This document shows positions 36,212 through 41,230 of a DNA stretch of 64,000 bases, in pieces. Source of the stretch: Ferroplasma sp. (GTDB taxonomy: Archaea; Thermoplasmatota; Thermoplasmata; Thermoplasmatales; Thermoplasmataceae); NCBI RefSeq assembly GCF_031200575.1, contig NZ_CP133597.1, positions 1,488,001 through 1,552,000 on the forward strand, in the 5' to 3' direction. The stretch's first letter is position 1. Every line of letters starts with the position of its first letter. The notes below the pieces were generated by a model. It was not told the origin of the DNA. It worked only from the letters and a program-made list of their open reading frames with translations, and searched no databases. A program made the position numbers and the translations under genes.

Positions 36212-36312
36212 AAGAAATAAAGTGCTTGCAGTATATAAAAATATGGAAATGGATTTAATTATAGTTTAGTTTTTCTTATATATTACGGAGGCATATAGTT
36301 TAACAGTTGAAA

Positions 36313-37092
36313 ATGAACAGAATAATGAAATATCCCGGGTCCAAAATAGGTGTTATTAAGGATATCCAGGCACTTTATGATCGATCCGGGTGCAGAACCT
36401 TTGTGGATGTTTTCGGGGGTTCAGGGTCTGTATCCCTGAATATAGATTCCAGAAATATAATTTACAATGACATTAACAGGGACCTGTATGCCCTGTTCAC
36501 AGTACTGCAAAAACATTTTGCCCAGTTTTACAGGGCCGCAAATGCCCTCGCAATGGATCGTAAGCTATTCTTCGATTATTATGATAGGAGAATAGTTATG
36601 GATGCTGAAAATCCGGAAATTGAAAGGGCATTTTCCATTTTCTTTAATTTCAACACCGGTTTCGGGGGAATGGGGGAAACCTATGGAAAAAAGGATAAAT
36701 CACTTTTCGGGGGTTACAGAAAAAACGTCTCAAACCTGATTAAAGCATCACATGCTATTGGCAGGATGAAAATAGAGAATATGGATTTCAGGAGCATAAT
36801 AGAAAAGTACGATTCGCCTGAAACCTTTTTTTATCTGGATCCGCCCTACCCCGGCAAAAACTGGTATGTGCACAATTTTACTGAAGGTGATTTTATGGAT
36901 CTTGGAAGCAGTGTGATGTCTTTAGATGGAAAATATGCAATGAATTTCAATGCATCAGATGCCCTACCTGTGAAAGTTTTTGGCAAACCGTCCTTTATAA
37001 GGGAAGAAGCAAACCAGAACGGCAAGCCTGGCAAGACCCAATCCAGGAAAATAGCCTTCTATACAAATGTTGTTGCTGCAAAGATGAGGTAA
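36313..37092 (+). CDS. D12-class DNA adenine N6-methyltransferase (Dam-like)
   Basis: About 259 residues. The SAM-binding motif is DVFGGSGSVSLN near residue 36, an FNFNTGFGGMGETYG target-recognition start follows, and the catalytic motif is YLDPPYPG near residue 177. This motif order (FGGSG first, DPPY second) is that of the D12 or Dam-type N6-adenine methylases. There is no restriction endonuclease next to it, so it appears solitary. A TTG at 36307 is an alternative start. Recognition sequence unknown. It opens a run of same-strand genes that ends with the VirB4-like gene. Confidence 0.85.
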   Translation: MNRIMKYPGSKIGVIKDIQALYDRSGCRTFVDVFGGSGSVSLNIDSRNIIYNDINRDLYALFTVLQKHFAQFYRAANALAMDRKLFFDYYDRRIVMDAENPEIERAFSIFFNFNTGFGGMGETYGKKDKSLFGGYRKNVSNLIKASHAIGRMKIENMDFRSIIEKYDSPETFFYLDPPYPGKNWYVHNFTEGDFMDLGSSVMSLDGKYAMNFNASDALPVKVFGKPSFIREEANQNGKPGKTQSRKIAFYTNVVAAKMR

Positions 37093-37940: not shown

Positions 37941-38011
37941 ATATGTATTAAGTGTATATTATATTTACTACGTTATAAATAATATTTTATACTGCCTTTC
38001 TATTACCAAAA

Positions 38012-38269
38012 ATGTTATTTGAATATGTAATAGCATCCATAAACACAATGCTGGGCAGGATAGATGATATTGCCATCTCTGTTTCTGCTGTATTGATTAC
38101 ACTTTTATGGATTCCGGTTGCACTGAGCTTCTTTAGCACTGATGAGAACAAAAAATATATGGCAAGGGATAGGCTGAAAAACGCCACCATAGGAACAGTA
38201 ATATACATTCTGGCTGTAAGCGGGGTCCTGTATGCAGTATTTAATTATGTGGTTACCGGGAAAGCATGA
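38012..38269 (+). CDS. Small two-helix membrane protein, VirB2/TrbC/CedA1-like pilin candidate
   Basis: 85 residues: a short N-terminal segment (EYVIASINTMLGRIDD), a hydrophobic helix at about 20-40, a charged loop DENKKYMARDRLKNATIGT, and a second helix at about 58-80. Small two-helix proteins with a basic central loop, RxxLKNAxIG-type, are the form of VirB2/TrbC pilins and of the CedA1/TedC subunits of archaeal DNA-import machines. Its stop overlaps the next gene's start (ATGA). The family assignment rests on topology, the loop motif and context, not on strong sequence identity. Confidence 0.65.
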   Translation: MLFEYVIASINTMLGRIDDIAISVSAVLITLLWIPVALSFFSTDENKKYMARDRLKNATIGTVIYILAVSGVLYAVFNYVVTGKA

Positions 38270-39192
38270 ATTTGGAGATAATTCTGAAGGAACTCGCGGA
38301 CACCCTTGTTGATCTTGCAAGACCGTCTGTGATAATACTGTGGCACCTTACTGTAAATTATGGACTTGCTCCCAGGTATTCATATATACAGTTTATAGAT
38401 GGAAACCCAGCCTTTCTATCATTTTATCATTATCTGTTCAACAGCATTTATACAGACATTGTTGTTGCTGTCATGATATTCTCAGCAGTAATCATGCTTG
38501 TATATAATTCTTTCATCAAACCATATCCGGCTACAAGGCTTATAATTAAGATGGCTGTTTCCTCTGTGCTTTTTATAGAATCTTACAGGATTTCTATGCT
38601 GTTTCTGGAGGTTTCACTGGCTTTTTATAATGCCGTGTATACACTGAAACCCGACTGGTACAGTACTGTAATATCTGGACTTTCACCGGAAAATACCCTT
38701 ATATCAATACTGCTAAACGGTTCTTATATACTTGCCATTATACTCCTTTTCGGAATACTCATAATAAGGCAGGCCCTTATATTTTTCTTTATACTGTTTA
38801 TTCCAGTCATTTCCATACTGTTCATGATTCCAGGCAGTGAGAAGCATGTAATCAAGTTTTACAGGATATTTTTTGAAATCGCCTTCTTTCCATTTTTTAC
38901 TGTAATAATACTGTATCTTGTCGGCATGTTTAACAATCCATTCCTGGATATCGGGCTGATATACGTGGCAGCCACGGCACCCCTGTTTTTTGTTACAGAG
39001 GTATACAGATACTTTCAGGGAAGCTTTAACTTCCTGGAATCCGATGCAATCATGTCAGATATATCCTCATCAATGGAAGGTATCACGCCAGAATCTATGC
39101 TAAATGGAAATTTTACACTGGAAGCTGCAATTCCTGATATATCTGAGGATCTTATTCCAGGGATAACTGGCACCGGTGGTGATATTCATTAA
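38266..39192 (+). CDS. Polytopic membrane protein, VirB6/TrbL/CedA-like
   Basis: 308 residues with about six membrane helices (near 62-84, 95-122, 145-166, 168-189, 200-221, 228-246), then a soluble acidic C-terminal tail. The segment RQALIFFFILFIPVISILFMIPG followed by a basic loop (SEKHVIKFYR) matches the distinctive R-hydrophobic-P-hydrophobic-PG-x3-7-basic pattern of the conjugation VirB6/TrbL and archaeal CedA families, which form the inner-membrane channel. It lies between the pilin-like gene and the VirB4-like ATPase, overlapping both. In the Sulfolobus Ced system the equivalent protein CedA carries DNA into the cell. Confidence 0.7.
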   Translation: MNLEIILKELADTLVDLARPSVIILWHLTVNYGLAPRYSYIQFIDGNPAFLSFYHYLFNSIYTDIVVAVMIFSAVIMLVYNSFIKPYPATRLIIKMAVSSVLFIESYRISMLFLEVSLAFYNAVYTLKPDWYSTVISGLSPENTLISILLNGSYILAIILLFGILIIRQALIFFFILFIPVISILFMIPGSEKHVIKFYRIFFEIAFFPFFTVIILYLVGMFNNPFLDIGLIYVAATAPLFFVTEVYRYFQGSFNFLESDAIMSDISSSMEGITPESMLNGNFTLEAAIPDISEDLIPGITGTGGDIH

Positions 39193-39193
39193 G

Positions 39194-41230
39194 ATGCCGG
39201 CCAACGTATATAATTTCAAATCCTATATTTATGGATTACCACTGGAAAAATTTATTATAATAATTGCCGGAATATCCATTATAGCAACTGTTTTTACCAT
39301 ATCTCTCCTTGCTGCACTAATAATAGGGGTGACCTATTTCACCATCATGCTTATTCTGAGGTTCGACCCGGGAAATGTATACTTAATGAGAAAATTATAC
39401 TTTCATGGTTCAACCTATGAAATAAAGTTTATCCAAAATGGTGAGTTGTATGGAATTTCCGGGAAATTTGCCTTTACTGCCCTTGAGATAGAAAACCGGG
39501 AACTATACACAGACAGCGCCAAGAATGTAAAGATCCTCGGCATAGCCCGTGCCCTGGAAAAACTTACATGTGGCTACACTATTGTATCAAAACCGGAGGA
39601 GCATGAGAATTCTATATATTACAGAACATTTGTATTATTAAAGGCTAATGCAGGAAATTTCAACAGCGCTGTGGACACTATTAGGGAAAATATAACTGCA
39701 TTTATTTCCGGAGGCGGAGTTGGTGCAAGGCTCGTTGATGATGAGGATACTGTTTCATCTATCTTCCCTAGAAATGTAAGAACCTTCTCAAATTACTTTA
39801 AAAAGGATGGATTTTACGGTTCATGCTATGATATTGTAGATATGGACTATTCAGGAGACTATCTCTATCAGTCTATAATAGAAAAATTTGGATTCATGGT
39901 GGAATTGTATATAGATGTAAAACCACTTATGAGAAACAACTTATTCATGAAGAGGCTGATTGCCTCCAGAAAGGCAGAGCTTTCATATGCAAAAACAGGG
40001 CATTATGCATCTCTGCTGAAAAAACAGTTAAGTTCGCTTGAAGCCCTGTCCAGGCAGGATAAACTTTATAATGTTTCCATCAGATTTTCGTTGCTCTCGG
40101 ACCATCCTGCTGAACTCAGGAAAAGCAGTGATCAGTTTCTCAGGGTTATGGAATCCACAGGCTTCAAAATTAATCAATTTCATTTTTTTGGCAGGGATTC
40201 ATTTGATCCTCTGGCATATTCATCACAGGGGAAAAAATATATGATGGATGCTGAATCATTATCATCAATTTTCCCCTGCGGTTTCACGGCCATACCGGAG
40301 TCCCGCATGCAGCCTGTTGGTACCAACATAATTACGGGTAAAACAGTATATCTGAACCTGTTCAGAGGTTCATCATACAATATCGCAATAACAGGTGAAA
40401 CAGGATCTGGAAAATCCTATTTTACAGAAATGCTGCTTGGCAGCCTGGGCAATTCTTCACAGGTATACATTATAGACCCCTTAATGGAATATACAGGCGA
40501 TCAAATTGTACAGCTGGGATCCGGGGAGTATCCTGATTTTATCATGGGCACAACAGGAATAAATCATGCAGTAAAGGATGCCATAGAGGCTATTACAGGA
40601 ATACCGGATGAGAAAGTCACAATAATAATAGAAAACGCGGAGAAAAAGTACGGAGATCTCCTGTTTAGCAACTTAATATCTGAAATTATAAATTACGAAA
40701 AACGGCATTCAATTACTTTTACATCACTTGCGGGAAAAATTTTTGAGACCCCAGTAAAATTATCTGGAAAGAGGGTTGTATTCAGGTTTGATTATGCCAA
40801 TAGCCATCTACGTGATATGTTCTTCAGGCTTTGCCTTACTCTTGCCGTGCATCTGGCCGAGGGAAGTGAGGGAAATAAATTCATTGTAATAGATGAATCT
40901 CATCTTTTTCTAAAGGATAAGAAAAATGCAGAAATTGTTGATATGCTCGCCAGAAATGGGAGGCATAACATGATATCCCTTATTACAGTTACCCAGAATG
41001 TTGATGACTATTACCTTAACAATTATTCTGAATCAATACTCAGGAACTCAATGAATTATTTTATATTCAGGCAGCGCGAAAAAATTAAAAACAAGCTTTT
41101 CCTTGGCTACAATATCGACCCATCAGCACTTGCAGGTGGAAGCAATTTCGATTATTCAGAGTGTTTTTATTCTACAGGCACGCTCATAAGAAAATTGAAA
41201 ATTATTGGGGATTTGGGTAATTATAAGTAG
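39194..41230 (+). CDS. VirB4/CedB-like AAA+ ATPase of a DNA-transfer system
   Basis: About 678 residues. Two membrane helices (about 20-55) are followed by a VirB4-type N-terminal domain, then a RecA/HerA-like ATPase core: Walker A GETGSGKS (about 401-408), Walker B FIVIDES (about 563-569), the ARNGRHN segment (about 586-592) and VTQNVDD sensor-like motif (about 599-605). This arrangement is that of VirB4/TraC and CedB, the motor that powers type IV secretion and archaeal DNA import. The chosen ATG follows the previous stop codon by one base; a GTG (39176) would extend it by six residues. It is followed by a convergent UPF0173 gene. Confidence 0.82.
   Translation: MPANVYNFKSYIYGLPLEKFIIIIAGISIIATVFTISLLAALIIGVTYFTIMLILRFDPGNVYLMRKLYFHGSTYEIKFIQNGELYGISGKFAFTALEIENRELYTDSAKNVKILGIARALEKLTCGYTIVSKPEEHENSIYYRTFVLLKANAGNFNSAVDTIRENITAFISGGGVGARLVDDEDTVSSIFPRNVRTFSNYFKKDGFYGSCYDIVDMDYSGDYLYQSIIEKFGFMVELYIDVKPLMRNNLFMKRLIASRKAELSYAKTGHYASLLKKQLSSLEALSRQDKLYNVSIRFSLLSDHPAELRKSSDQFLRVMESTGFKINQFHFFGRDSFDPLAYSSQGKKYMMDAESLSSIFPCGFTAIPESRMQPVGTNIITGKTVYLNLFRGSSYNIAITGETGSGKSYFTEMLLGSLGNSSQVYIIDPLMEYTGDQIVQLGSGEYPDFIMGTTGINHAVKDAIEAITGIPDEKVTIIIENAEKKYGDLLFSNLISEIINYEKRHSITFTSLAGKIFETPVKLSGKRVVFRFDYANSHLRDMFFRLCLTLAVHLAEGSEGNKFIVIDESHLFLKDKKNAEIVDMLARNGRHNMISLITVTQNVDDYYLNNYSESILRNSMNYFIFRQREKIKNKLFLGYNIDPSALAGGSNFDYSECFYSTGTLIRKLKIIGDLGNYK

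Follow-up and report, generated by a model that had tools for sequence, protein, structure and literature searches.

A chromosomal, conjugation-derived type IV secretion core in Ferroplasma and related Thermoplasmata, probably for DNA exchange between cells

Our data show that three adjacent genes of Ferroplasma sp., here called A, B and C, form a chromosomal, vertically inherited and conjugation-derived core of a minimal type IV secretion system (T4SS). This conclusion follows from the identities of the three parts, from their kept order, single copy and housekeeping site, and from the absence of VirD4, as judged by Pfam models, and of close plasmid or viral relatives. Since a coupling ATPase is missing and almost every member keeps the operon at a set place amid housekeeping genes, its most likely function is the transfer of chromosomal DNA from cell to cell, probably as import. 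With a probability of roughly 0.6, we read the operon as a domesticated minimal T4SS, drawn from conjugation machinery of the monoderm type, which moves chromosomal DNA between kin cells and serves the recipient as an importer. In such a machine A would polymerise to give a mating pilus or conduit that is thin and hollow, B would provide the membrane channel, and C, held under this channel by its VirB3-like N-terminus, would power both pilus assembly and DNA movement; chromosomal DNA would be carried between kin cells with the importer on the recipient side, as in Ced, for recombination and repair. A core of this make-up, i.e. a pilin conduit, a VirB6-type channel and a VirB4-type motor, has been published for Ced and Ted (PMC9905601); pilus formation, DNA as the substrate, the import direction and the link to repair are what we infer for the Ferroplasma operon.

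The operon lies in a window of 64,000 nucleotides, by which we mean the whole stretch of DNA that was analysed (table 1). The preliminary description of this DNA had drawn three tightly packed open reading frames, and their coordinates and strand, the ATGA overlap of A and B and the position of the C ATG one base past the stop of B were all verified; a GTG 18 nt upstream of the ATG at 39194 is a possible alternative start of C. With dN/dS values of 0.04–0.18 against two congeners, A, B and C are genuine genes under purifying selection. The conserved TATA-like box 5' of A is followed, before A, by ATTACCAAAAATG, which is conserved in an alignment of seven Ferroplasma-genus loci, and together these elements suggest that a transcription unit starts at A, the spacing of the box fitting a leaderless transcript. 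Neither RNA families nor element-end repeats were found at the locus. Upstream of the operon there is a gene for a D12-class DNA adenine methyltransferase, at a site shared with five other Ferroplasma-genus loci.

Table 1. Positions of the operon and of features discussed in the text. Plain numbers below the first row count from the first letter of the window; other positions carry the handle of their locus (L) or genome (G).
Feature	Position	Strand	Remarks
Operon window	1488001-1552000		within one contig of 1.859 Mb
Gene A, VirB2-like T4SS pilin, 85 aa	38012..38269	+	PF18895 E 6e-5; AF2 hairpin
Gene B, VirB6/TrbL-like polytopic channel protein, 308 aa	38266..39192	+	Foldseek and profile link
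Gene C, VirB4 ATPase, 678 aa	39194..41230	+	AAA_10, TraC and VirB4_plasma matches
TATA-like box TAATATTTTATA, conserved	37980..37991	+	about 26 nt 5' of A start codon
D12-class DNA adenine methyltransferase	36307-37092
Large proteins bearing the pilin hairpin (f5)	L055:11829-15999 (G040); L057:6911-8758; L060		four in tandem in L055
Large protein adjoining pilin gene (f7)	L081:10482-15923		1814 aa; PKD domains; secreted-looking
Protein adjoining pilin gene (f7)	L078:9610-11325		572 aa
Pilin region inside a 1112-aa ORF (f7)	L082:9572-12907		fusion
Extra ATPase, 677-679 aa (f3)	L053:2071-4107; also L056, L058, L064, L070, L071		directly after C
VirD4-like protein	G040:C1:975199-976371		Aciduliprofundum-like genome
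Two-TM protein, examples	G000:C1:255418-255630; L034:12050-12289
Pilin-like ORF, 94 aa	L143:7217-7498		Thermoproteota genome

That the three proteins are a pilin, a VirB6-type channel and a VirB4 ATPase, as the preliminary description had proposed, is borne out by Pfam, Foldseek and profile evidence. C carries all the ATPase motifs that had been read in it, namely Walker A (GETGSGKS, 401), Walker B (IVIDESH, 564), RNGRH (587) and TQN (600), and these are invariant or almost so across the family. Its matches include AAA_10 (1e-10), TraC (5e-20), VirB4_plasma (2e-18) and the CD1110-VirB4 model, the best solved relative found with the family profile is the VirB4-like 4ag5 (E 6e-13), and hhalign against the pCF10 VirB4 (PrgJ) gives an E of 5.5e-10 over 434 columns. 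By its sequence, C is assigned as a VirB4 ATPase with the VirB4 N-terminal domain. In front of this domain and the ATPase, residues 13–65, which include two transmembrane (TM) segments (residues 21–58), resemble a VirB3/PrgI membrane anchor: the two Pfam families found most often with this N-terminus are VirB3 and PrgI, each in three of 28 members, with weak E values of 0.001–0.1 (0.001–0.004 for VirB3), and a profile comparison with pCF10 PrgI only reached the level of the negative controls. VirB3 homologues have been stated to be absent in archaea (PMC11868833), a statement on which this N-terminus bears, if with matches that are weak so far.

B has about six TM segments and a near-invariant R168...P180...P239 pattern, and its family has no direct match in Pfam. 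Its AF2 model (pLDDT 78, pTM 0.69, with residues 1–240 mostly at 80–94) was compared by Foldseek with 350,542 PDB chains, and ranks 1–4 as well as 8, 10 and 13 all went to R388 TrwI/VirB6; since E values and TM-scores are low (best E 0.17, TM about 0.24–0.28), it is the ranking and not the score that counts as evidence here. The preliminary description had named placement in an unrelated family as what would speak against it; the B model fell in with VirB6 and with no unrelated family. Independently of the fold, a search with the B profile turned up a thaumarchaeal protein (hhalign E 2e-6) for which Pfam in turn gives TrbL/VirB6 in the corresponding region (E 0.0013); a comparison of B with pCF10 PrgH remained at negative-control level. 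Fold ranking and this transitive profile link together classify B as VirB6-like.

A is predicted to have two TM helices (20–38 and 63–81) and no evident signal peptide. Its best Pfam family is T4SS_pilin (PF18895), with an E of 6e-5 and a score that falls just short of the curated Pfam cut-off, and this family matches 29 of 31 members of the A family (best E 9.9e-8), among which there is also one TrbC/VirB2 match; from NCBIfam, the pilin Mbov_0395 of a mycoplasma integrative conjugative element (ICE) is a weak match. The AF2 model of A (pLDDT 73) is a two-helix hairpin with long helices at 2–42 and 51–82, which found no match in a fold search, as is to be expected of a helical hairpin, and profile comparisons of A with pCF10 PrgF and with B gave only negative-control levels. 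Judged by its family matches, A belongs with the T4SS pilins of the VirB2 type.

The operon has the distribution of a core gene set. C was found in 52 of 61 relatives and is missing from none of the ten genomes of the genus, its own included; of the 33 sampled family genomes, 32 have, by the B profile, a single copy of the operon. Among 295 genomes sampled across the phylum, 63 match the B profile; beyond its own family these include the majority of genomes in three further families of the order, many members of family f7 in the class and, weakly, one of f18, and the profile finds nothing in many other families of the class. Some genomes of the Aciduliprofundum-like family lack the operon. Iterated HMMs place A, B and C next to each other and on the same strand at essentially each locus, order-wide and also in families of the class beyond this order, and their gene order is the same in essentially all of more than 40 related loci, which is far beyond chance. 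Outside Ferroplasma, the loci of the family mostly share one address, with thioesterase and rpiA-like genes on one flank and mptD-like, kinase, trm1, ubiA-like, GGGP synthase-like and purL-like genes on the other (all names except that of the thioesterase being read from sequence); the Ferroplasma operon occupies a different housekeeping site, which is common to six loci. Adjacent relaxase and integrase genes in related genomes had also been named in advance as evidence for an integrative element: the neighbours there are housekeeping genes, and the flanking genes scanned include no match to an integrase or relaxase family. Viral contigs yielded no relatives of the operon and plasmids only remote VirB4s (11 records, weak, about 22% identity). 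The parts themselves vary between lineages. In many genera two ORFs take the place of C, one VirB3-like/N-terminal and one for the ATPase, and the pilins of some families have an N-terminal signal-like segment whereas those of others, Ferroplasma included, do not, a contrast which also divides TedC from CedA1 (PMC9905601).

In its design the operon is like Ced and Ted, yet by sequence it is classed as a member of neither. With Ced of the Sulfolobales it shares a chromosomal VirB2, VirB6 and VirB4 core, with no relaxase noted and a pilin without signal peptide (PMC9905601, PMC11868833). Here, however, the three genes form one tight operon and the VirB4 is a single VirB3-like/VirB4 fusion, whereas Ced has CedB and CedD and requires CedA2, CedE and Ups as further parts (PMC11868833); neither Ups nor damage induction is known for the Thermoplasmata operon. 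Ted of the Thermoproteales (TedC, TedA and TedB) has the same three-part core, but its pilin and channel show no detectable sequence similarity to those described here, and Ted loci carry HerA/Rad50/ParA, whereas in Ferroplasma nurA-herA-mre11-rad50 sits elsewhere in the genome. Membership of Ced or Ted, which the preliminary description had suggested, is not supported. CedA1 and TedC gave no match in the PDB for the operon proteins, and in 349 genomes of the Thermoproteota phylum the B profile has no CedA/TedA-like match; it matches five genomes, and the one match examined is a thaumarchaeal TrbL/VirB6. Against the CedB model NF041017 of NCBIfam, C reaches 25.6 bits, the cut-off being 700 bits. 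In a VirB4 tree, a quick build with long bacterial branches in which TraC falls inside the clade that includes C, CedB forms a clade separate from C, and forcing the two together is weakly disfavoured (p-AU 0.08); monophyly of the Thermoplasmata ATPases is compatible with the data (AU test, p-AU 0.495), though not demonstrated by the tree. As a separate observation, one Thermoproteota genome has a two-TM pilin-like ORF beside VirB4-like ATPases, which resembles a CedA1/TedC-type pilin.

The monoderm machinery of the MPF_FATA type (pCF10 Prg, mycoplasma ICE, T4SS of Patescibacteria) is where the best matches of A (T4SS_pilin, Mbov_0395) and C (VirB4_plasma, CD1110, TraC) lie, and in pCF10 the VirB6, VirB3 and VirB4 genes are adjacent and in the same order as here. 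Unlike these systems, the operon has no VirD4/TcpA, VirB8, VirB1 or relaxase adjoining and is not on a mobile element. Among the B-profile matches examined, the sole relative of B outside the phylum is the VirB6 of thaumarchaeal integrative conjugative elements, which, in contrast to the operon, are mobile and carry VirD4, and the VirB4s of which belong to another clade together with that of plasmid pT33-3 (PMC6563490).

A different function for the same core would be that of a surface machine which only builds pili or displays adhesins, e.g. in biofilms or cell contact, and moves no DNA; we consider this unlikely, even though VirB4, VirB6 and a pilin are in principle enough for filament assembly and the operon contains no DNA-processing gene. 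Some relatives speak for it: in f5 genomes the pilin hairpin stands at the C-terminus of secreted-looking proteins of 320–616 aa, possibly conjugative pilins with an ectodomain, and in f7 the large proteins at the pilin gene, such as the one with PKD domains, are candidate mating adhesins; Aciduliprofundum-like and f7 relatives have pilins with large ectodomains or, next to the pilin, the 1814-aa PKD-domain protein. The A protein of Ferroplasma, however, has no ectodomain, and the core is the same as in Ced and Ted, for which DNA transfer has been shown (Ced) or proposed (Ted).

Rather improbable, too, is that the operon serves to donate DNA or to pass chromosomal DNA in both directions by conjugation, the DNA being fed out by HerA or by VirB4 itself. 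The preliminary description had spoken of an import machine and not a conjugative element, and the second half of this statement stands, the operon being vertically inherited, housekeeping-sited and not mobile; the direction has no sign in the sequence, and import is what we infer. VirB4, VirB6 and VirB2 serve export in bacteria, and in Sulfolobales CedA1 and CedE are used for export as well (PMC11868833). VirD4, which had been reported missing from the window, is absent from the whole genome for the models tried (PF02534, PF12696, PF19044 and AAA_10). The one PF02534 match is not VirD4 but HerA, inside the nurA-herA-mre11-rad50 operon. By end resection, this set has been proposed to supply the single-stranded DNA that archaea transfer (PMC9905601). 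With PF02534, no VirD4 appears in the Ferroplasma, Thermoplasma or Cuniculiplasma-like genomes searched, which argues against export, although the search missed a separate VirD4-family ATPase named in a report on Cuniculiplasma (PMC5155288); genome G032 has one weak, unassigned partial match. A clear VirD4-like protein (PF02534 E 1.5e-25), encoded apart from the operon, occurs in the Aciduliprofundum-like genome G040 alone, the other 11 genomes searched being without one. In family f3, moreover, an extra ATPase that abuts C and forms a long separate branch of the ATPase tree is a candidate coupling protein. Because of these two ATPases, some lineages may export.

Competence, i.e. the uptake of free environmental DNA in a manner comparable to Helicobacter ComB, is a very unlikely reading. 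ComB is a VirB-type machine which works without VirD4, just as a coupling ATPase is absent here, and the wall-less, single-membrane cell counts for this view, whereas the short life of extracellular DNA in hot acid counts against it. Least credible of all is the leftover of an integrated conjugative element, since, although all modules of this kind presumably go back to conjugative elements (PMC9905601), the operon is kept across families in single copy, under purifying selection and at fixed addresses, in a pattern that is neither patchy nor shifting, and shows no element-end repeats or mobile genes among the flanks scanned and no close plasmid or viral relatives.

Parts of this machinery have been seen before. 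Golyshina et al. listed a VirB4, a multipass protein and two membrane proteins of Cuniculiplasma as 'type IV secretion components', a cluster (CSP5_1185-1189) named in 2016 by arCOG (PMC5155288), which is very probably orthologous to A-B-C. In contrast to the present analysis, their report makes no pilin or channel assignment, gives no DNA-exchange reading and contains no class-wide survey, and we found no other paper in the literature that offers pilin and channel assignments, class-wide conservation or such a reading. New are the class-wide conservation, the VirB2 and VirB6 assignments and the existence of lineages in which the pilins are giant and adhesin-like or a further ATPase is present. 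According to Beltran et al. 2023, no case of conjugation domesticated for chromosomal DNA exchange was known beyond the crenarchaea (PMC9905601). Such a system in the core genome, spread over a euryarchaeal class and present in Thermoplasma, Ferroplasma and Cuniculiplasma-like organisms among others, would provide a means by which the reported recombination of these populations could come about. Structural studies would gain a minimal T4SS of only three genes, and the number of times that conjugation machines have been captured by cells would be seen in a new light. Going further, we propose tentatively, at slightly less than even odds, that the Thermoplasmata took an ancient chromosomal DNA-exchange machine of their own from conjugation, independently of Ced and Ted, and have inherited it since the early days of the class, and that in some lineages pilins with giant ectodomains are conduit and adhesin at once; if this is true, archaea would have turned repeatedly to domesticated conjugation for DNA repair and sex.

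A further gene, which lies convergent beside C in about 20 loci and encodes two TM segments, was considered as a component and rejected as a mere neighbour, since it is conserved also in genomes that do not have the operon and is located elsewhere in Ferroplasma. Its product, a protein of 63–87 aa with a W..D.G..S motif, is found order-wide, and in most of the family's genera its gene and C are convergent.
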